Origin: Deltaproteobacteria bacterium
GTDB lineage: Bacteria; CG2-30-53-67
DNA length: 61,869 nucleotides
Reading direction: 5' to 3'
NCBI GenBank assembly: GCA_013151235.1
Contig: JAADIO010000006.1
Span: forward strand, 1-61,869
Part shown: piece after piece, positions 777 through 16,747 of the stretch
How positions within the stretch are numbered: the first letter of the stretch is position 1
Layout of the letters: each line of letters opens with the position of its first letter
The notes under the pieces: model-generated
Told to the model about the DNA's origin: nothing
Database searches by the model: none
What the model saw: only the letters and a program-made list of their open reading frames with translations
Translations under genes and position numbers: made by a program

Positions 777-1130
777 TCAGTGCATTTTTCTCTTCAGATC
801 ACCATGATAGACAATCTCTTCCGCACGAACGCTATCATCCTTCAGGACGTCCGGTACGTCACCTCCTCTCTTTTTAAATTTTTCCCTGGCCCGATCCAGT
901 TCCTCCTCACTGTATGCATATGCCAGATTAACGGAGATCACATGCGGAATTCTCTCCAGTTGTAGTACCTTCCGGATCTCCTCTTCGGCATACTCTCCTT
1001 CAAGGGTCACGATGATCCGTCCCCGGGGATCATGAAAGAAGACATCACACAGTGACCCCTTCCGCAGGACCGAAATCACCTCGTCCACCCGACCTTTCTC
1101 TGCCTGAATAACAATACCGGACACATTCAT
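777..1130 (-). CDS. napD: NapD, chaperone for periplasmic nitrate reductase
   Basis: A 117-residue cytoplasmic protein beginning MNVSGIVI, the usual opening of NapD. In this family it binds the twin-arginine signal of NapA and holds it until the molybdenum cofactor is in place. The ferredoxin-like fold is suggested by the alternation of predicted strands and helices; the C-terminal 35 residues are charged and longer than in enterobacterial NapD. GGAGGG lies 4 nt before the ATG. It sits between napB and the HAO-like cytochrome gene in one minus-strand operon. The napA product in the same operon has a clear Tat signal, so the pairing is consistent. Confidence 0.88.
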   Translation of the reverse strand: MNVSGIVIQAEKGRVDEVISVLRKGSLCDVFFHDPRGRIIVTLEGEYAEEEIRKVLQLERIPHVISVNLAYAYSEEELDRAREKFKKRGGDVPDVLKDDSVRAEEIVYHGDLKRKMH

Positions 1131-1225
1131 TTTACCCTCCGCTCGTTCGGTTCAAGATCGGCGCTTTTCCCGGGGATCTCTGCGCCATACCGCCCTCGCC
1201 AATTCAGCTTTGTCCTGCATCCTCG

Positions 1226-1705
1226 CTAAAAACCGTTTTTGATGAGAGGTTTCAGTTCCGCCTGCGGAACATGACACTGGATGCAAAAATATCTTCCCTG
1301 ATAAAGTTTCCCGCCCAGATTCCTCCCGGTTCTCAAATCCACGAGGTGCGAACGGGGAACGGGCGTTGCTCCCATCCCGACCGCTACGTCCGGCATGTGG
1401 CAAGAAATGCAGAGATTTTTTCCTCTCTTGATCGGCAGCATGTCGGAAATGTCGTGAGGGATCAAAGGAGGGGCATTTTCAAAGGAACGATCGATTCTCC
1501 GACTGGTCCCCGGCGCATTGGAAGGATAGCGGACAGCAGGTACTCGTGTACCGGCATCATCCATGAGGGGCGCGTATCGATACCCCATTTTCTCATCACC
1601 TTTCGCTGCATCATGTTGAGACGCTGCATGTGCCGCCACGAAGCAAAATAGAACGATCATGCAAACTGAGGATATCCCCGTTCCATATCGTGCATACCTG
1701 TTCAT
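1226..1705 (-). CDS. napB: NapB, dihaem cytochrome c subunit of nitrate reductase
   Basis: A 159-residue exported protein with an N-terminal hydrophobic signal and two haem motifs, CISCH (about residue 99) and CIQCH (about residue 141). The block APPLIPHDISDMLPI before the first haem and CHVPQAE after the second are hallmarks of NapB. It passes electrons to NapA in the periplasm. AAGGAGG precedes the ATG, and the start codon overlaps the napH stop in an ATGA arrangement, so the two are translationally coupled. A 95-nt gap separates it from napD. Confidence 0.93.
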   Translation of the reverse strand: MNRYARYGTGISSVCMIVLFCFVAAHAASQHDAAKGDEKMGYRYAPLMDDAGTRVPAVRYPSNAPGTSRRIDRSFENAPPLIPHDISDMLPIKRGKNLCISCHMPDVAVGMGATPVPRSHLVDLRTGRNLGGKLYQGRYFCIQCHVPQAELKPLIKNGF

Positions 1706-2529
1706 GTTTTCCTCCTTTTCAAGATCTTCCGGATTCCGAAACGAAGAGCGTTTTCTTCACAAACTTCCACACACCGTCCGCAGAGCACGCACTCCCCATG
1801 GGAGATGGTGCCGCTTTGTTTCCCGACCTCACTTAAGATCTCTTTTTCCGGACAGACCGCGATACATCGGTCACAGCGGGAACAAAGATCCGCCGTGTGC
1901 CGGACCTGAATTAGTCTGTTACGACCGATCAGAGAATAAAATCCTCCCAGGGGGCAGAGATGTCCGCACCAGCCGTTCCGCACCGCCAGGAGATCAAAAA
2001 GAAAAATCATCCCAACGGCCATCCACCCGAAACCAATGCCGAAGATCAGTCCCCTGTGCATCATGGAAACGGGACTGATAAACTCAAAGGCTGCAACCCC
2101 CAGGAGCATTGAAAGTATTAGGGAGATCCCGATCATCCAGTAGCGTACGTTCCGACTCAACCGGATGAACCCGTCCTCGTCCTCAAAATCCATCTTCAAC
2201 CCGCGCCGGATTCCTCCCGCCGCGTCCGTGACCAGGTTCACCGGGCAGATCCAGCTACAAAAACTTCTTCCTCCTAAAAAAACATAAAAAAGAGCGACGA
2301 TAAGCGCACCCACAGCAACGGTTTGTTTCACGGAGGCGCCAGCCGCAAAAACCTGGAGCAGAGCAAAGGGATCGGTCAGCGGAATCTTTTCGAAGAGTTC
2401 CGAAAAGGTCAGGTTGCCGGTGATGATCTTCCACCCCCACCGGTTTGCCCCGATCAGGAGGACAAGCAGGGTGATTTGGCTAATTCTCCTTAGGATCAGA
2501 AACCTGTGTGTGAAGAAAAATCTACTCAT
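1702..2529 (-). CDS. napH: NapH, membrane ferredoxin-type quinol dehydrogenase subunit
   Basis: A polytopic membrane protein of about 275 residues ending in two [4Fe-4S] motifs (CSRCDRCIAVCP and CVLCGRCVEVCE). It also carries the conserved loop motifs SFCSWICP and CGHLCP of the NapH family. With NapG it oxidises menaquinol and feeds the periplasmic Nap enzyme, the route used where the tetrahaem NapC is absent; no napC is visible here. I chose the ATG at 2529 because GAGGG lies upstream at suitable spacing and the codon overlaps the napG stop (ATGAGTAG). An upstream in-frame start at 2547 is possible but lies inside napG. Confidence 0.93.
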   Translation of the reverse strand: MSRFFFTHRFLILRRISQITLLVLLIGANRWGWKIITGNLTFSELFEKIPLTDPFALLQVFAAGASVKQTVAVGALIVALFYVFLGGRSFCSWICPVNLVTDAAGGIRRGLKMDFEDEDGFIRLSRNVRYWMIGISLILSMLLGVAAFEFISPVSMMHRGLIFGIGFGWMAVGMIFLFDLLAVRNGWCGHLCPLGGFYSLIGRNRLIQVRHTADLCSRCDRCIAVCPEKEILSEVGKQSGTISHGECVLCGRCVEVCEENALRFGIRKILKRRKT

Positions 2530-3343
2530 ACAGAATTCCCTCATCATTCAGATAATCCTGTGCTTTGCGACGACTCCTTTCCGTTCGGATGGTGAAACGA
2601 TCCGGGATATTTAACAGACGCCGTTCATCCCGTTTGTCCCACCCTTTGATATACCTGGGATCCGCTTTTCCCATCACCCGGTCCCTCGGAAAAATCCGGA
2701 CCGACGCTTTTTGGGTGATACAGACATGTTCACACACTCCACAGCCCGTACACTGTTCACAATGCACCTTCGGTATGAGGAGGGCGTGTTCCCCAGTTCT
2801 TGCATTCCGCAGATAATCAATGGTAAGTGCCTTATCCATCAAAGGACAAGCACGGTAACACGCGTCGCACTGAATTCCCCAGTAGGCGAGGCAGGAAGAT
2901 TCATCCAGGACCGCAACCCCCATCCTGGCCCGGGCAATGTCCGGAATCTCCATGTTGCCCCGGTTCTTGGAAACCCGGTCAAGATCCAGCGCACCGGTAG
3001 GACAGACCGGGACACAGGGGATGTCGGTACACATCCGGCAAGGTGTCTCCCGGGGAACAAAATAGGGGGTACCCAGGGGTTTTTGATCCCCGGGAGCTGC
3101 CAGTCTCAGGGTGTCATAGGGACATGCTTCAACACATTTTCCGCATTTGATACATTGCTTCAGAAAGTCCTCTTCCGGTGGAGCGCCCGGGGGACGGAGA
3201 ATCAACGGATCCGCCTTATTCTCTTCCACATAGGCACCCCATGCCGTCCCGGTGATCCCGGCCATGCCCAGCGACCGGACCATCTGAAAAAGAAACTTTC
3301 TTCTCGAACTAACGGGTTTCGGTTTCTCATCCCTCTCATGCAT
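2522..3343 (-). CDS. napG: NapG, Tat-exported 4x[4Fe-4S] ferredoxin
   Basis: A 273-residue protein with a twin-arginine-type leader (SSRRKFLFQ) and four cysteine clusters, the first being CIKCGKCVEACP and the last CTGCGVCEHVC. This is the NapG architecture: a periplasmic iron-sulfur protein attached to NapH that accepts electrons from the quinol pool. GGGAGG sits 6 nt before the ATG. It lies between napA and napH, 56 nt after napA, and overlaps the napH start. The order napA-G-H-B-D resembles epsilonproteobacterial nap clusters more than the enteric napFDAGHBC order. Confidence 0.93.
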   Translation of the reverse strand: MHERDEKPKPVSSRRKFLFQMVRSLGMAGITGTAWGAYVEENKADPLILRPPGAPPEEDFLKQCIKCGKCVEACPYDTLRLAAPGDQKPLGTPYFVPRETPCRMCTDIPCVPVCPTGALDLDRVSKNRGNMEIPDIARARMGVAVLDESSCLAYWGIQCDACYRACPLMDKALTIDYLRNARTGEHALLIPKVHCEQCTGCGVCEHVCITQKASVRIFPRDRVMGKADPRYIKGWDKRDERRLLNIPDRFTIRTERSRRKAQDYLNDEGILYE

Positions 3344-3399
3344 CCCGAACCTCCCTGTCAGCAGTCAAACCGCATGGATCTTCCGGACTTCTCCCATGT

Positions 3400-6192
3400 T
3401 TAGGCCTTATAGATCCTGACGGCACACTTTTTATAATCAGTCTGTTTGGAAATCGGACAGGTTGCATCGAGTGTAACCTTGTTGATATAGACCCGTTCAT
3501 CGAACCACGGGACAAAGACAAGCCCCTTGGGCGGGCGGTTCCGCCCACGCGTTATTACTCGGGACTTGACTTTTCCCCGTCGGCTCTCCACCCAAACCAT
3601 TTCTCCATCCCGGACCCCCAGCTTTCGTGCGTCCTCCGGATGCATATAACAGAGCGCCTCAGGGACTGCTCTGTAAAGCTCCGGGACCCGCATGGTCATC
3701 GTGCCGGAGTGCCAATGCTCCAGCACGCGTCCGGTACAGAGCCAGAACGGATAGAGATCATTGGGAACTTCCGGGGGCTCCATGTAAGGCCGGAAGAAAA
3801 TCTTGGCCTTGTTCTTCAAGCTGAACTTCTCGCGAGTCCCGGGGCCTCGCAAATCTCCTTTCGGCAGTTTTTTTAAGGCGGGTCCATAAAAGGCAAAATC
3901 TCCGGTTCCTGCAGCGCGTGCATAGGGATCATACTTCGCGTTGAACCGCCACGGTGTTTCCTTCCCGTTTACAACGGGCCACCGGAGACCCCGCGCTTTC
4001 TTATGATAGTCATCGAAATATGCCAGATCGTGGCCACGCCCAGCTCCGAATTTCCGGTATTCCTCCCAGAGGTATTTCTGCAGAAAAAATCCATACCCCC
4101 GGAACGGTTTTCCATCAGTTCCTATGACATTCCGCTTGTCCCCTTCCGCCTCCGTGTTCTGGAAGCCTTTTCCGACCGGATCGGGCCAGGGATAGCTTCT
4201 GGCCTCGGAATCGGCGAAGAGAACATCAAAGAGCGTATCATCAGGTTTGTAACCCATCTTTTTCGCTTGAGCCAGCACATCCGGAAGAGTCAATTTCTCA
4301 TCGATCTTCCACGCCTTCCAGACATCTTTCAGCCGAAACCTCTTTGCGAATTCCGTGTACTGCCAGAGATCAGGCATGGCCTCTCCCACTGGAGTCACTT
4401 GCTGTCTCCAGTGTTGTGTGCGCCGATCTGCATTTCCGTAGGCACCCCACTTTTCAAAAATCATCGCGCTCGGCAGAACCAAGTCGGAGACCTTTGCTGA
4501 AATCCCGGGATAGGCATCCGAAACCACCAGGAAATTGTCCATCTCCCTGGCAGCCTTGATCCAGTGGTTGGCGTTCGCTGCATCCTGCCAGGGGTTGCAG
4601 ACATGTGCCCAGGCGAAGCGGATCTTTCCGTCCTCCAGATCACGCATCATCTTGACGAAGTGACTGCCCACCCGGGGGTTGATGGTTCCCGGGGGTAGTT
4701 TCCAGATCGATTCTGCTATTTTCCGGTGTTTGGGGTTTTTGACGACCATATCCGCAGGAAGACGATGTGCAAAGGTACCGACCTCTCTTGCTGTGCCACA
4801 TGCCGAGGGCTGTCCCGTCAGGCTGAAGGCGCCGTTTCCAGGCTGAGCCTGCTTTCCCAGAAGGAAATGGACCATGTAGGCCTGTTCGTTCACCCAAGTC
4901 CCTCGGGTATGCTGGTTCATCCCCATGGTCCAGAAGCTGACGACTTTCCGGTTTTTCTCCAGATAAAGATCCGCCAGGGCCTGAAGCTTTTCCTGAAAAA
5001 CCTTTAAAGGCTCATCGGGATTGCCCCTGGCCAGCCGCGCCGTGTACTCCAGGGTATAGGGGGCCAGCCCCTTTTTGAACTCCTCGAAGGAGATCATCCA
5101 GTGTGCCCCGGCCTTCCGGGAATGTTTCATCTTCATCATCTCCTGCGGTTGGACGCCCAGGAACTTCAGTCCTTCGACCTCATCCTCCGTTAGCTTTTTC
5201 AATCGTTGTTTTGCGGTGGTATCCAGTTCGGATTCCCGATACTTCGGGTAATGAATATCTTCCCGCATCCCGTAACCGATATCCGGGAAACCAGTGGCGA
5301 AAACCATGTAACGGTCCACAAAATCCCGGTCGATCGACTCTGGATGATGATAGACGATCTCGTGGGCGATGTAATTCCAGATGGCCAGATCCGTATTGGG
5401 TTTGAAGATGATTTCGATATCAGCCAAATCCGAACACCGCTGCGTAAAAGTACTTAGGTTCACGACCTTTACACGGTTCGGACGGCTCAATTTGCGGTCG
5501 GTCACGCGTGACCACAGGATGGGATGCATCTCCGCCATGTTGGCGCCCCACGTAACAATCGTATCGGTGAATTCAGTATCATCATAGTTCCCCGCGGGCT
5601 CATCAATCCCGAAGGTCTGGATGAATCCGGCCACCGCCGAGGCCATGCAATGACGCGCATTCGGGTCGAGATTGTTGCTCCTGAATCCGGCTTTCACGAG
5701 CTTGCTGATGGCGTATCCCTCCTCGACTGTATACTGCCCCGATCCAAAAACACCGATCCCGGTCGGCCCCAGGGTGTAATAGGCACGCCTGAATTGCCTT
5801 TCCATCTCGTCAAAGGCCCGCTTCCAGGAAACCGGACGGAACTTTCCCTTCTTATCGAATTCCCCTTTCCGGTTTACCCGAAGCAACGGCCGCGTCAACC
5901 GGTCCTGCCCATACATGATTTTGGCATTGAAATATCCCTTGATACAATTGAGACCACGGTTGACCGGGGCCTTGGGATCCCCCTTCACCGCCACAATACG
6001 GTCATTCCGGGTAGCGACCATGATTCCACATCCCGTTCCGCAGAAACGACAGACCGCCTTATCCCATCGCCAACCCGTTTCAGCGGTTCGAGCCGCAGCC
6101 TGAATGTTACGAGGAAGATTCATCCCCACGGTACCTGCTGCCGCCGCCGCTGCAGCCGCTTTGATAAAATTCCGTCTTGAAAGCAACATCAT
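3400..6192 (-). CDS. napA: NapA, periplasmic nitrate reductase catalytic subunit
   Basis: About 930 residues, close to the long epsilonproteobacterial NapA and longer than the roughly 830-residue enteric form. The Tat signal ([10 protein letters not shown]) is followed by the [4Fe-4S] motif CRFCGTGCG...NCIKGYF. The Mo-bis-MGD region includes [10 protein letters not shown], which carries the cysteine that ligates molybdenum in Nap enzymes, and a C-terminal molybdopterin dinucleotide-binding domain is present. It reduces nitrate to nitrite in the periplasm. The frame is open to a GTG at 6198, but GAGGAGGAGG lies immediately before GTG and fits the ATG at 6192 (or the adjacent 6189) better. First gene of the nap operon; a candidate operator lies about 85 nt upstream. 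Confidence 0.96.
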
Positions 6193-6275
6193 CGCCACCT
6201 CCTCCTCATTAGATCAATCCTCTATGGTTCCCCATACAACCCGTGCATCATTGTAGCCGCTATATTGTAAATCCG

Positions 6276-6565: not shown

Positions 6566-6796
6566 ATGAATCGAGAGATCCATGACCTGGAGAAAATTCT
6601 CGAGGTCTACGCTATTGCAGAGCAGCGCGAACAGGCAGCTTACAACTTCTATGTGGACGCCGCCGACAAGATCTCCGAGGAAGCTGAGAAGAAGGTTCTT
6701 CTCGATCTGGCAAAATTTGAACTGCAACATCTCAAAATGATGAAAGAACGTTTCGAATCGACACGGGAACGAATTGAGAAGCTCCGCAATAAATAA
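6566..6796 (+). CDS. Short ferritin-like (rubrerythrin-type) protein
   Basis: Seventy-six residues, all helical and charged. The helix pair contains EQREQAAYNFY and, 30 residues later, FELQHLKMM, i.e. one Glu and one ExxH, half of a rubrerythrin/ferritin di-iron site. Such half-site proteins make the metal centre by dimerising, but that is inference here. The frame is open further upstream to 6383, but the upstream part has no family-like sequence and crosses the promoter, so I start at the ATG at 6566 (CGGGAG upstream). First gene of an operon with a second ferritin-like domain (8405-9235). Iron or peroxide handling is likely. Confidence 0.75.
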   Translation: MNREIHDLEKILEVYAIAEQREQAAYNFYVDAADKISEEAEKKVLLDLAKFELQHLKMMKERFESTRERIEKLRNK

Positions 6797-6813: not shown

Positions 6814-7230
6814 ATGGCCTCCGTTAAAATCCACCCTCATCCGATTGCCGTCCATTTTTCCAACGGGCTGATCCCCGTTTCGATCTTTTTTCTTTTTCTG
6901 TTCTTTTTCACTCGTAACCCTCATATGGAGATTGTCGCCTTCTACACCCTGTGGGTGGGAACCCTCGGTTCCGCACTGGCCTTGGGGACGGGTCTTTTCG
7001 ACTGGAAGAAGCATTACCGGGGCGCCTGGGTGCCAGTATTCAAAAAAAAGCTGACGGCCGGGGTTCTTGCGATCCTGGGAGGAGCCCTCGCCTGCTTGAT
7101 CCGTTATCTCCATCCCGGCCTTCTTTTATCCCTCTCGGGCCTGTCCGTTTTTTATGTAATGCTGAACCTTTTCGTCCTCGCCTGTGTCGGCATCGCTGGA
7201 TACCTGGGCGGCAAGTTGGTCTTTCAGTAA
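6814..7230 (+). CDS. DUF2231-family membrane protein
   Basis: A 138-residue protein with four predicted transmembrane segments. It opens with IHPHPIAVHFSNGLIP, matching the HPxxVHF signature of DUF2231 membrane proteins, and ends close to the cytoplasmic side. Some family members have histidines placed as if to bind haem, but a role is not established. It starts 17 nt after the ferritin-like gene and 29 nt before the FAD oxidoreductase, so it belongs to the same operon. A membrane redox partner for that oxidoreductase is possible, not shown. Confidence 0.7.
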   Translation: MASVKIHPHPIAVHFSNGLIPVSIFFLFLFFFTRNPHMEIVAFYTLWVGTLGSALALGTGLFDWKKHYRGAWVPVFKKKLTAGVLAILGGALACLIRYLHPGLLLSLSGLSVFYVMLNLFVLACVGIAGYLGGKLVFQ

Positions 7231-7259: not shown

Positions 7260-8408
7260 ATGAGCCGTACTACGAAACAGATGATCCTGGTCGGAGGCGG
7301 CCATGCACATATGACCGTTATGCTTCGCCTGGATGAATACCTTTCCCGGGGGCACCAGGTTACACTGATCAATCGTTCTCCCTTCCACTACTACTCCGGC
7401 ATGGGGCCGGGGATGTTTTCCGGCATTTATCGCCCCGAGGAGATCCGCTTTCATGTAAGAAAGATGGTAGAAGACCGGGGCGGAGAGTTCATTGAGGGAG
7501 AGGTCGTTCGGGTTCATCCCCAGGCGAACAAACTCATTCTGGCCTCCGGTGACGAGGTCGGCTATGATGTTGCCTCCTTCAATACGGGAAGTTATGTGCC
7601 GTTGACTTCTCTGGAAGGCGTGACGGAAGAGATATTGACCGTCAAACCAATCCTGAATCTCCTCCGTGCGAAACAGCGAGTTTTGAATCAGCTCTCACAG
7701 GGTATTCCCCGTCTTGTCGTGGTGGGAGGAGGCGCTGCCGGTCTGGAAATCACGGGAAACCTGGAACGGCTGGTCCGGAAACAGAATGGAACCGCACAGA
7801 TTACTCTCCTGGCCGGCCGGCGGTTCCTCCCTGCCTTTCCTGAGAAGGTCCGGAGACTCGCGCTCTCCTCGTTCGTGAAACGGAAGATCTCCGTTATGGA
7901 GGGGGCACGGGTTCGTACCTTCGAGAAGGGGGAAGCAGTCCTTGAGGATGAACGCCGATTCCCCTTCGACCTGGCCATCCTGGCCCTCGGTGTTCGCCCT
8001 TCTCCACTCTTCGCCGACTCCGGTCTTGCCGTCGGTCCGGACGGCGGCCTTCTGGTCAATAATTTTCTACAGTCCACCGATTATCCGGAACTGTTCGGCG
8101 GCGGCGACTGTATCTCTCTGGCCGGCCATCCCCTCGACAAGGTCGGGGTCTTTGCCGTTCGGCAGAACCCGGTCCTTCATCACAACCTCATGGCCGCCCT
8201 CGAGGGAGGAGAGATGCAACCTTTCGTCCCGCAGAAAAACTACCTCCTGATTTTCAATCTCGGGGACGGCCGGGGGATTTTCTATAAGGGGCGAAGGATT
8301 TTTGCCGGACGCACCGCCTTCTTTCTCAAAGATTGGATCGACCGGAAGTTCGTAAAATCCTTTCAGGTTTCCGGCGAACAAAACCGTTCACTGCAAAGAG
8401 ATTTATGA
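7260..8408 (+). CDS. FAD-dependent NADH dehydrogenase / SQR-like oxidoreductase
   Basis: A 382-residue two-dinucleotide-binding-domain flavoprotein. The N-terminal FAD motif is LVGGGHAHMTV, the second Rossmann motif is VVVGGGAAGLEI, and the C-terminal FAD motif is LFGGGDCI. The start VGGGHAH and the YYSGMGPGMFSG block resemble the subfamily often fused to selenophosphate synthetase (SelD) and also NDH-2/SQR enzymes. No active-site cysteine pair is evident, so a disulfide reductase role is unlikely. The C-terminal region is hydrophobic/basic, suggesting membrane association and electron delivery to quinone. The open frame extends upstream to 6951 but that part is out-of-frame shadow of DUF2231. 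It overlaps the next gene by ATGA. Its electron acceptor is unknown. Confidence 0.75.
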   Translation: MSRTTKQMILVGGGHAHMTVMLRLDEYLSRGHQVTLINRSPFHYYSGMGPGMFSGIYRPEEIRFHVRKMVEDRGGEFIEGEVVRVHPQANKLILASGDEVGYDVASFNTGSYVPLTSLEGVTEEILTVKPILNLLRAKQRVLNQLSQGIPRLVVVGGGAAGLEITGNLERLVRKQNGTAQITLLAGRRFLPAFPEKVRRLALSSFVKRKISVMEGARVRTFEKGEAVLEDERRFPFDLAILALGVRPSPLFADSGLAVGPDGGLLVNNFLQSTDYPELFGGGDCISLAGHPLDKVGVFAVRQNPVLHHNLMAALEGGEMQPFVPQKNYLLIFNLGDGRGIFYKGRRIFAGRTAFFLKDWIDRKFVKSFQVSGEQNRSLQRDL

Positions 8409-9235
8409 TGTCCGTTTTTGATTATTTCAAGCCGGTTTCCTCCTGGACTGCAGAAGATCTGAAGTCTTTTCTTGATCGTTCCGCCCCCGGAGAACTCCAG
8501 TTGATTGATGTCCGTCAGCCTAACGAATATAAAGGGGGACACCTTCCCGGTGCAATCCTGATTCCCCTCGGAGATCTTCCCGACCGACTTAATGAACTCG
8601 ATCCTGCGAAGCCGACCCTCACCTATTGAACGGCAGGCGTGCGCAGCCGGTCGGCTGCGGGATTGCTCGAAGGGGCAGGATTTCAACAGGCCCATACCCT
8701 CACCGGGGGACTCCTCGCCTGGGATGGCCGTACTGCATCGGGTCCGCCCGAAACGGGGATGCTCATCTTCTCCGATGCCGATACGCCGCAGGCCCTGGGA
8801 CAATTGGCTATGATGCTGGAGGAAGGTTCCCGTCGATTCTATTCCTCCATGGCGGATGCGGCCTCGAATCCCTCGGTCAAGGTCCTCTTTGATGAACTGG
8901 TCCTTGCCGAGACGCACCACCAAGAGAAACTTCTGAATTTCTGCCGGCGTCTATCGGCAAAAGATCCGACCTCTCCCCTTCCGCAGTCGGACTATCCCGA
9001 TCTCATGGAGGGGGGAATCCCGCTGACGGAAGGACTGCAATGGTCGAAAGGGAAATCTGCGACGGAGATCCTTCAGTTTTCCATGGCCCTTGAGACCAAC
9101 GCCTGCGATCTCTATCTAAGGATGATCACAAGAATGAAAGAGGACCCGGAAAGCACCGCCCTTTTTGAACATCTTGCCGGGGAGGAACAGCTCCATTTGA
9201 AACGGATGGCAAAACTCCTGGAAAAGAAAAATTAA
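8405..9235 (+). CDS. Putative selenoprotein: rhodanese domain (Sec75) fused to a ferritin-like di-iron domain
   Basis: Read through an in-frame TGA at 8627-8629, the gene encodes 276 residues. Residues 1-115 are a rhodanese domain (LIDVRQPNEYKGGHLPGA; PTLTY-U-TAGVRSRSAAGLL; LTGGLLAWDG). The TGA falls exactly where the catalytic cysteine of the active-site loop belongs. Residues 130-276 are a ferritin/rubrerythrin-like four-helix domain with both Glu and both ExxH positions (LEEGSRRFY, AETHHQ, ALETNACDLY, GEEQLH). A SECIS-like hairpin starts 12 nt after the TGA. The same frame stays open and family-like on both sides, which argues against a pseudogene. Likely a selenium-based sulfurtransferase or reductase tied to iron or peroxide chemistry. 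The alternative is a nonsense mutation. Confidence 0.82.
8642..8659 (+). promoter_or_regulatory. Bacterial SECIS-like hairpin in the rhodanese gene
   Basis: CGCAGCC (8642-8648) pairs perfectly with GGCTGCG (8653-8659), leaving the tetraloop GGTC (8649-8652). Nineteen nucleotides separate the TGA from the loop. The well-known E. coli fdhF SECIS has the same apical GGUC loop about 18 nt after its UGA. Stem, loop and spacing therefore match what SelB recognises. Confidence 0.75.
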
Positions 9236-9275: not shown

Positions 9276-9467
9276 ATGGAAAAGAAGCGGAAAGGTATCG
9301 ACTGCTTCCGATGCAGGCATTTTTATGTAACCTGGGACAAGAAGTTTCCCCGGGGTTGCCGGACTATGGGGTTCAAAGGGAAGGAACTTCCCTGTCGAGT
9401 GGTCCTGGAAGCCTCGGGAAGAGAGTGCCTAAAATTTGAGAAGAAGAAAAGAAAGATGTTCTCCTAA
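9276..9467 (+). CDS. Small cysteine-rich conserved-type protein
   Basis: Sixty-three residues, strongly basic, with five cysteines: CFRCRHF near the start, then RGCRTMGF, LPCRVV and ECLKF. The CxxC-H-x-C pattern suggests a small metal-binding or redox protein. I recognise the general sequence type (CFxCxHFYVTWDxxFPRGCR) from uncharacterised proteins but know no function. GGGG lies 9 nt before the ATG. It follows the selenoprotein by 40 nt and is probably the last gene of that operon. Confidence 0.6.
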   Translation: MEKKRKGIDCFRCRHFYVTWDKKFPRGCRTMGFKGKELPCRVVLEASGRECLKFEKKKRKMFS

Positions 9468-13974: not shown

Positions 13975-15528
13975 ATGGAAAATATCGACCAGAATTCCCC
14001 GGCGGTGGGGATCGACAGATTAGCCGGACAGGCGGCGGAACAGGGATGCCGCTGGGTCCGATTCAGCGAGGACATCGTTGCCGACCTTGAGATCGTTACC
14101 CCTCTCGACCTGAAAAAGCTGCAAGAGGAAGGGTGGTTCCCATGGACCATCTCCGGGAAGACGGCCACGGTGATTACCTGCACTCCCTCCTCAGAAATGG
14201 ACCGTCTCTGCCGGAAGGTCCTCGGCGTGGATCATATCGAATTCGTGCTGGCCGACCGCGATAATCTGACCCGGATCATCGAACACAATCAGGACATCAA
14301 CCATCGGTTCTCCCCGGATGCAGGGAGGACGCCGCTTGCCCGTGTCCGGACCTATCTTGCCAATCGCCGTTCCATGCTTTCCCTCTGCCGCACACTGCTG
14401 GCCAAGAGTCGAACCCATCTGGCCGTGGTCCGAACCGGATGCGCATTCATCGCCATCGCCATCGTTTTCCTCCGCATCTTTACAAAGCTTCCGGGCAACG
14501 CCCTTCTCCCATTTCTGATCCTGGAGGTCCCCCTTCTCTCCTTCGGAATTTACATGATCCTTGCCCACATGCTGAAGTATATGCCGGCCCGGAAGGTAAA
14601 TGACCTTCTCCCTTCCTGCAAAGCAACCACCCCCACGGGAGGGAGTACGGTACTCCAGGTTTCGGATGAAGAGAAATCTCCGACCTTCCAACGCTCGGAT
14701 GTCGTCCCGGAAGCGGATACCCTCCGGCGGGACTGGACCCGGCTTTCGCCGGTGATGCGTCGCCGTTTCCTGGCATCCGACCGGACCGATTTCGCCGAAG
14801 AACGGACCACGCTTGCCTGCTTCAGGACCTGGATGGCGAACGTCCGTACCTGGCTGGCCTTCGTACGCACCGGCGGCGCCTTCGTCGGTCTCGGTTCCGG
14901 GCTGATACGGGCCTTCCCGAACAGTTCCTGGTTCTACTTTGACCTGAGCCTGGCCGGGATCGGCTTCCTGATGATCTGCGAGGGACTCTTCTGGTATTTC
15001 CGGGGCTACCATTCCGGCAAGATCAGCTTCAAATCGGTTCTCCGAATGAATGCCGGGGAAACGATCTGGGACACCTTCTTTCCGCACCGCCATGACGATT
15101 CTCCACCGAACCGTGTGGGGCTGCCTCTCGAAAAAGGGCAGGCCCCCGGAATCTGGGCAACCACCGGGCTTGCGCTTGAACGGACCGTGCTGGCGGACAG
15201 GCGCAATACCATGGCCCGGCTGCGTACAGTAATGGCACGGATGAGAACCGGTTACTCCTTCATTCGGACCGGCCGGACTTTTTTCTTTATCGGTGCTACA
15301 TTTGCCGTCTATTTTCACAAGAGCAACTTCTTCTGGTACAGCTATGAGGCTGTCATGATGCTGGGCGGTCTTCTGCTGATCGTCGACGGTCTCCTCTGGG
15401 TCCTCCCTGCGAGCAGGGTCCGCAAACAGTTGCCCTACTGCACCGCGGATGTGAATATCAACATACCGGACTACGGCATTCCCTGCTGTGACTGGAAGAA
15501 GATCGAGCTTCGTCATGATACACACTAA
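13975..15528 (+). CDS. Membrane protein with MshEN-like N-terminus and three DUF202-like modules
   Basis: A 517-residue protein. Residues 1-110 resemble the second half of an MshEN / type II secretion ATPase N-terminal domain (LKKLQEEGWFPW followed by a VITCTP strand). Three DUF202-like modules start near residues 117, 268 and 401. Each is an amphipathic heptad run beginning with Arg-Thr (RTTLACF, RTWMANV, RTWLAFV, RTGGAFV) leading into two or three membrane helices. DUF202 proteins are usually one module of about 100 residues with unknown function, so a triple array behind a ligand-binding-like domain is unusual. No ATPase domain is present. It overlaps the next gene, a two-module relative. 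No good ribosome-binding site is seen at the ATG. The function is unknown. Confidence 0.65.
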   Translation: MENIDQNSPAVGIDRLAGQAAEQGCRWVRFSEDIVADLEIVTPLDLKKLQEEGWFPWTISGKTATVITCTPSSEMDRLCRKVLGVDHIEFVLADRDNLTRIIEHNQDINHRFSPDAGRTPLARVRTYLANRRSMLSLCRTLLAKSRTHLAVVRTGCAFIAIAIVFLRIFTKLPGNALLPFLILEVPLLSFGIYMILAHMLKYMPARKVNDLLPSCKATTPTGGSTVLQVSDEEKSPTFQRSDVVPEADTLRRDWTRLSPVMRRRFLASDRTDFAEERTTLACFRTWMANVRTWLAFVRTGGAFVGLGSGLIRAFPNSSWFYFDLSLAGIGFLMICEGLFWYFRGYHSGKISFKSVLRMNAGETIWDTFFPHRHDDSPPNRVGLPLEKGQAPGIWATTGLALERTVLADRRNTMARLRTVMARMRTGYSFIRTGRTFFFIGATFAVYFHKSNFFWYSYEAVMMLGGLLLIVDGLLWVLPASRVRKQLPYCTADVNINIPDYGIPCCDWKKIELRHDTH

Positions 15529-16747
15529 TTCACAAAGCCCGTTCCAGGGTCTGGTCAAACACGGGATTCTGGATGCGAAAACCCTGGCCGAGGCACTCGG
15601 GGTCGCCGAACGTCATGGCCTGCCGCCGGCCGAGATCCTTCTACGGGAGTACGACCTTCCCCGCGCAGCGCTCCAGCAGGCCCTTGCCGATCATTACCAC
15701 TGCGGGGTCCTTGAATACGATGAACGGCTGCCGATTCCCCCCGAGCTCCTGTCCGGGCTGGAGACTGAAAAACTGCGGGAGGAAGGATGGTTTCCGGTCA
15801 TCAAAAAGGCCGACGGTACGGTAGTCGTCGCTTGCACGAATCCCGCCGACCCCGCCCTTCCAGCAGAGGTGCAGGAAATCCTCGGAACCGGGCCATTTGA
15901 ATTCAAGGTCTGCCTCCCGGACGACATCCGATGGTTCACTGAAGACTTTCTCCATGCAAAACCGGGCAAACTGGTGGGTACGGAGCGAACCGGCCTGGCC
16001 TATTGGCGTAATAACATGGCCCAGTGGCGGACTGCTCTCGCCTGCTACAGGACGGACATGGCCCGTGCCCGCACCGCCCTGGCGATCATGCGTGCCGGAC
16101 TGGGACTGATCACCATTTCCTTTGCTCTCACCCGGGCACACTACCTCGCACTCCCCGAAGCAGCGACGATTCTTATTCTGGTCCTGGGTTGCGTCCTGGC
16201 CGTCGGCGCCGTACTCCCTTATCTCGAAGTCCGCCGCAGCCGCCTCCGTCCCCCCGGCGACACGACGCTGGTCGAGGTCACCGCCACGGAAGTAAGCTTT
16301 CTGAAGAACTATCTCAACCCGGAGAAATCCCCCGTCAAAGCACCGCACCGGGAGAAAATGCTGGCCCGGATCAGTGACCGGCTTCTGGAGTACTGCACCC
16401 TGCTCTATCCGCCCCCCGGAAGTCTGGAGCGGACACACCTTGCTCGGGAGCGAAACGTTCTGGCCGCCCAACGGACCATCGCCGCCTGCAACCGGACCAT
16501 ATACGCCCGGGCACGAACCGGGTTGGCATTCATCCGGACCGGGATCTCCTTCATCAGCATCGGGATCGGTTTAATCAAATACTTCGGCCCCGGCAGAAAC
16601 ACGATCTTTGACGCCCTGCTCATCCTGATCGGCCTTCTGCTGACGATCGACGGTGCCCGCTGGTATCGTCCGGCACACCGGTCGCAAACCGTTTTCTCGG
16701 AACTCGGCAGCCGATTCCGTCTCGAAAATTTTGTCAGCCGGTCATAG
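15515..16747 (+). CDS. MshEN domain protein with two DUF202-like modules
   Basis: About 410 residues. The first 150 residues read clearly as an MshEN/GSPII_E_N domain: VKHGILDAKTLAEAL, then LLREYDLPRAALQQALADHY, IPPELLSGLETEKLREEGWFP and VVVACTNPADP. In type II/IV secretion ATPases this domain can bind c-di-GMP, but the usual leading RLG is not present here, so binding is uncertain. DUF202-like modules follow at about 157 and 305, with heptads such as RTHLARE, RNVLAAQ, RTIAACN, RTGLAFI and then membrane helices. I use the ATG at 15515, inside the end of the previous gene; an alternative GTG lies at 15488. It is co-transcribed with the previous gene and the receiver gene that follows. Confidence 0.7.
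   Translation: MIHTNSQSPFQGLVKHGILDAKTLAEALGVAERHGLPPAEILLREYDLPRAALQQALADHYHCGVLEYDERLPIPPELLSGLETEKLREEGWFPVIKKADGTVVVACTNPADPALPAEVQEILGTGPFEFKVCLPDDIRWFTEDFLHAKPGKLVGTERTGLAYWRNNMAQWRTALACYRTDMARARTALAIMRAGLGLITISFALTRAHYLALPEAATILILVLGCVLAVGAVLPYLEVRRSRLRPPGDTTLVEVTATEVSFLKNYLNPEKSPVKAPHREKMLARISDRLLEYCTLLYPPPGSLERTHLARERNVLAAQRTIAACNRTIYARARTGLAFIRTGISFISIGIGLIKYFGPGRNTIFDALLILIGLLLTIDGARWYRPAHRSQTVFSELGSRFRLENFVSRS

Follow-up and report, generated by a model that had tools for sequence, protein, structure and literature searches.

An apparently undescribed rhodanese-ferritin fusion with a probable catalytic selenocysteine

Introduction

Rhodaneses that carry selenocysteine (Sec) are already known, as forms 1 to 5 of a "rhodanese-like domain-containing protein" that are traced to work of 2005 (PMC9312934, PMC13188914). 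In forms 2 and 4 the Sec-containing PF00581 domain shows the motif UxxG (PMC9312934, PMC13188914), as it does in the protein described here. Both reviews name Sec rhodaneses by the rhodanese domain only, and the words "ferritin" and "rubrerythrin" are absent from them (the sequences that they list were not compared with ours). A 2008 survey of selenoproteins reported domain fusions, including Ndh-SelD, and likewise leaves ferritin and rubrerythrin unmentioned (PMC2398784). Rhodanese selenoproteins are also found in two curated families, NF041203 ("rhodanese-related (seleno)protein") and NF045694 (rhodanese/DsbD fusion-like TsoB), but our protein scores only 21.1 bits against the cut-off of 115 for the first and gives no match to the second. 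No NCBIfam model fits the fusion protein.

Rubrerythrin and COG1633-type proteins share with our protein the PF02915 domain and the ligand series E, ExxH, E, ExxH, whereas our protein lacks a rubredoxin and has a rhodanese at its N-terminus. In the persulfide dioxygenase-rhodanese fusion BpPRF, the partner of the rhodanese is a mononuclear-iron domain of the metallo-beta-lactamase fold. BpPRF (PDB 5ve3) thus also joins a rhodanese to a non-haem iron oxidative domain, and it was the second-best PDB match of our protein, over the rhodanese part; the partner in our protein is, however, a di-iron four-helix domain. No paper joining rhodanese, rubrerythrin and selenoprotein was found in our literature search, which did not extend to subscription papers or preprints. 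The Sec fusion of a rhodanese with a ferritin-like domain therefore appears to be undescribed, with the reservation made above for the listed Sec rhodanese entries.

The fusion gene and its in-frame TGA

The gene lies on the forward strand at positions 8405-9235 of the window, by which we mean the whole stretch of 61,869 nucleotides that was analysed. Translated with TGA as Sec, it encodes 276 amino acids and ends on TAA, and the TGA at 8627-8629 (forward strand) is the sole interruption of the frame. This codon specifies residue 75 in the context KPTLTY-U-TAGVRSRS, which is the catalytic position of the rhodanese active-site loop (U-T-A-G-V-R). The rhodanese domain covers residues 21-107 (8465-8725, forward strand; PF00581, 70 bits with a cut-off of 22.2), and the rubrerythrin/ferritin-like four-helix domain is encoded by 8783-9229 on the same strand (PF02915, 51.6 bits). 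A Ferritin match was also found in the C-terminal part (24.6 bits over residues 146-274). The fold, a catalytic Cys or Sec and a loop arginine, which together define a rhodanese, are all present, with residue 75 and R80 in all 68 sequences aligned; sulfur transfer activity itself is only inferred. An earlier note on this DNA had described a single frame holding a rhodanese and a ferritin-like domain, broken only by this TGA at the active-site loop, and a 7-bp hairpin with a GGTC loop 12 nt past it. Translation and the Pfam search bear out the frame and its domains, the homologues discussed below bear out the position of the TGA, and the hairpin is where the note had placed it.

Orthologues with 65, 53, and 48% identity occur in three genomes of the same family as that of the window (G001, G004, and G005, respectively), each with a single TGA at the same column; in a fourth relative (G003) the gene lies at the end of a contig and is represented by its ferritin half only. 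The fusion is also present in 104 of the 395 genomes of another, large and deltaproteobacterial phylum, that of genome G030 (E <= 1e-25), with nearly all matches covering both domains. That phylum seems to include a deltaproteobacterial metagenome-assembled genome (L040), since L040 and G327 match in contig and in gene. We compared the catalytic column in all 32 clean single-TGA members and 28 others from that phylum together with 11 genes from elsewhere. The column is TGA in all 36 single-TGA genes and TGC or TGT in all 35 others, with no third state. This answers the question that the earlier note had put to the homologues, namely whether residue 75 is Cys or TGA. That note would have given up its reading had the TGA been unique to this contig, which it is not, as 36 genes from many assemblies share the column.

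The assembly containing the window (2.62 Mb, 99% complete) belongs to a small phylum, with 8 species in the genome set sampled. The selenocysteine genes that the earlier note proposed to look for are all in this genome: selA (620 bits), selB (422.6 bits), a tRNA-Sec with anticodon TCA, i.e., tRNA-Sec(UCA) (73.3 bits), and selD (370 bits), which is itself Sec-encoded with its own in-frame TGA. The UGA of the fusion gene and its SECIS-like hairpin would thus be decoded by the genome's own SelA, SelB, tRNA-Sec, and SelD. The same codon is the ordinary stop of the adjacent genes napH, napD, and the oxidoreductase described below, so TGA is not reassigned in this genome.

Two other explanations of the TGA were considered. 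The frame could instead encode two separate proteins, a rhodanese stump cut short by the TGA and, from an internal GTG at 8639, a ferritin-like protein; this start codon does exist in the open frame after the TGA. We regard this as very improbable: the residues right after the TGA complete the rhodanese fold and show conservation at the protein level (the window protein and its relatives are 62-84% identical), and half of the compared family is a single uninterrupted frame with Cys. That the TGA is a sequencing error, the mark of a pseudogene or a reassigned codon has nothing in its favour except the bare TGA and can be virtually ruled out, because its recurrence at a single column in so many assemblies excludes the first two, dN is well below dS on either side of it in every pair yielding a value, which shows purifying selection, and TGA works as a normal stop nearby.

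The SECIS-like hairpin

A bacterial SECIS-like hairpin, CGCAGCC-GGTC-GGCTGCG, is found at 8642-8659 on the forward strand, with its loop at 8649-8652; it starts 12 nt, and its loop 19 nt, after the TGA. The GGTC loop is presumably like that of the fdhF SECIS of E. coli, a likeness that was not tested. Folding of the hairpin region as a single sequence was unexceptional (z about -0.9) and an Rfam scan around the TGA gave no match, so the hairpin in one sequence is weak evidence on its own.

Comparative tests turn it into strong evidence. Among four close genomes, the longest unchanged run of nucleotides is 14 nt of the hairpin (the next longest is 6). A row of four codons within the hairpin, each six-fold degenerate, is invariant, while just 11 of the 54 comparable codons are invariant overall. 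We also folded positions +10 to +33 against shuffles that preserve the protein and its codon usage. The mean z was -2.03 in 36 Sec genes compared with -0.51 in 34 Cys genes (p = 9e-9), and windows elsewhere gave values between -0.5 and 0. The p-value ignores kinship and is optimistic since related genes are not independent. The gene of the window has a z of -3.45 in this test. SECIS geometry was taken to mean a perfectly paired stem of 5 bp or more, a G among the first bases of the loop, and a loop 16-37 nt from the UGA; such a stem was present in 34 of the 36 Sec genes but in only three of the 34 Cys genes. The family uses two stem registers, GCAGC with GCTGC and GAGCC with GGCTC, and in one gene (L137) a double change preserves a base pair. 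Imperfect cases were also seen, with one A-G mismatch in the hairpin of G001 and an imperfect stem in L135. These comparisons show that selection acts on the hairpin over and above the encoded protein in the Sec genes, and only in those. The SelD hairpin of the same genome does not have a GGTC loop, and we therefore claim no genome-wide SECIS consensus.

Taken as a whole, the gene very probably encodes a true selenoprotein, a rhodanese with a catalytic Sec that is joined to a di-iron four-helix domain of the rubrerythrin type, although no protein-level or 75Se evidence is available.

Exchange of Sec and Cys

Mapped on a tree of the 68 proteins, the state of residue 75 (Sec or Cys) has to change 12 times, and well-supported branches force at least nine of these changes. 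The family spans deltaproteobacterial lineages and the small phylum of the window, and Sec and Cys repeatedly interchange within it. One exchange falls within a genus. In genome G480, which is 98% complete, the fusion gene is a Cys form (L124), and no selB above the cut-off, no selD, and no tRNA-Sec were detected, whereas the congener G555 has a TGA form (L122) and all three. Since G480 is a draft genome, absence is unproven, yet all three are missing together. In another case (L127 in G404), a Cys gene with TGT is sister to a Sec clade and still has an intact hairpin. This is apparently a recent change from Sec to Cys, from TGA to TGT, for which a retained hairpin would be expected.

The di-iron domain

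The residues E139, E169, H172, E230, E261, and H264 form the ligand set of a di-iron site (E, ExxH, E, ExxH) and are each conserved in 66-68 of the 68 sequences; E202, which sits within a motif of the type (M/L)EGG, is likewise kept. Apart from residue 75, no column has Cys or Sec in more than 15% of these sequences. There is accordingly no conserved resolving cysteine, and a relay from residue 75 must lead either to the iron site or to a partner outside the protein. A rubredoxin-like [Fe(SCys)4] domain, as a rubrerythrin in the strict sense would have, was not found, with no Pfam match and no other Cys column above 15%.

A structure prediction from five sequences had a mean pLDDT of 66.9. The helices of the four-helix part are in the confident region and the rhodanese half is poor. 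When the model was used for a fold search of the PDB, the only matches of note were of ferritin type, none of them at E <= 0.001. Because of the poor rhodanese half and the lack of a fold match at this threshold, we make no claim about the geometry between selenium and iron.

Neighbouring genes

The fusion gene is the last of four genes in a forward-strand string. The string begins with a short stand-alone rubrerythrin-like protein of 76 aa (6566-6796; PF02915, 25.4 bits) and a DUF2231 membrane protein (6814-7230; PF09990, 50.9 bits), both of which are kept in G001, G004, and G005. These are followed by an FAD/NAD(P) oxidoreductase (7260-8408), the TGA stop of which shares bases with the start codon (ATG) of the fusion gene. 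The oxidoreductase is closest to TIGR03169, the FAD oxidoreductase domain found fused to SelD, but here it stands alone and scores 263.8 bits. It matches TIGR03169 over full length, and proteins of this type reach 259-279 bits, which is under the curated cut-off of 310. An assignment as sulfide:quinone reductase was tried and rejected, the redox-active, catalytic Cys pair of those enzymes being missing and only one Cys (GGGDC) being near-invariant. Without that pair, the protein is no obvious source of persulfide.

Across 70 loci, the FAD oxidoreductase is the commonest neighbour of the fusion gene. It adjoins it in 23, on either side and often with less than 40 nt between them or with an overlap. 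It is missing beside two thirds of the fusion genes, however, and is therefore not obligatory as a neighbour. Other recurrent neighbours are a PF04116 fatty-acid-hydroxylase-like gene, near ten fusion genes of both Sec and Cys form (L129, L131, L140, L142, L145, L146, L148, L127, L073, and L071), and, at some loci, genes resembling hydrogenase genes.

Three further observations were made in the window. Genes for a periplasmic nitrate reductase (napA, napG, napH, and napD, with a napB-like haem protein) lie on the reverse strand at 777-6198 and diverge from the string that holds the selenoprotein gene. On the forward strand, 9276-9467 encodes a 63-aa protein with several cysteines, CFRCRHFYVTWDKKFPRGC, which is conserved in G001 and has no match in Pfam or NCBIfam. 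Two adjacent membrane-type proteins in which RT.LA..RT segments recur, and which may be DUF202-like, are encoded at 13975-16747 on the forward strand.

Possible functions

Sequence comparison establishes Sec at the catalytic position, selected readthrough of the UGA, a full set of di-iron ligands and a recurring redox neighbour. No functional assay of any member of the family was found, and what follows is inferred. We tentatively propose, while recognising that it may well be wrong, a di-iron peroxidase or oxidase that is served by a relay through a selenium persulfide. In such an enzyme, the Se or S centre of the rhodanese would take up sulfane sulfur (as a Se-S persulfide, or S-S in the Cys forms) or electrons, the source of which may be the FAD oxidoreductase together with the NAD(P)H or quinone that partners it. 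Reducing equivalents would then pass from residue 75 to the di-iron site, which would reduce H2O2 or O2. The protein could thus be a peroxidase or oxidase of anaerobes in which a rhodanese takes the place of the rubredoxin-type electron relay of rubrerythrin. The earlier note had suggested that Se-sulfur chemistry is linked to the chemistry of iron or peroxide, which remains plausible and untested.

A different reading is that the protein supplies or repairs iron-sulfur clusters, with iron held by the ferritin-like domain and sulfur for cluster assembly given by the Se-persulfide of the rhodanese. Rhodaneses are established carriers of sulfane sulfur, as ferritin-like domains are of iron, and their combination, with both centres near-invariant, would suit this role. 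We nevertheless think it unlikely, though by no means dismissed, as there is no isc/suf-type gene among the recurrent neighbour clusters characterised, and the domain has the ligand set of a rubrerythrin, with no storage cage shown.

The earlier note had also raised selenium transfer as an option. A specific form of this would be selenium supply, in which a perselenide on the rhodanese is handed to SelD, aided by the SelD-domain-like oxidoreductase. The neighbour is indeed closest to TIGR03169 ("Nterm_to_SelD"), Ndh-SelD fusions have been described (PMC2398784), and selD was present in 53 of the 60 fusion genomes tested. Selenium transfer is nonetheless disfavoured, because Cys forms are equally common in the compared set and G480, at 98% completeness, keeps the protein, in its Cys form, without detectable selB, selD, or tRNA-Sec. 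A protein that depends on Sec for its own synthesis would also be an awkward supplier of selenium, and the oxidoreductase is missing beside most fusion genes. We consider a role in selenium supply to have only a slim chance of being correct.

Significance

The fusion adds to the selenium-dependent enzymes a domain combination that occurs in roughly one in four of the genomes sampled from a large phylum. It is easily overlooked, since gene callers would split off a rhodanese stump from the ferritin-like protein. The exchanges between Sec and Cys provide natural pairs for asking what selenium contributes to sulfur-transfer chemistry, and the exchange that coincides with loss of the Sec machinery within a genus (G480 compared with G555) is a natural pair for loss of the Sec trait.

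Returning to the proposed peroxidase or oxidase, the family might represent a new class of redox enzyme, one where the selenium persulfide of a rhodanese and a di-iron centre act directly together to reduce peroxide or oxygen (or to oxidise sulfane sulfur), with Se and S swapped at least nine times; this broader claim is rather doubtful at present. A persulfide centre and a di-iron site in one protein would tie sulfane sulfur to the defence of anaerobes against oxygen and peroxide.
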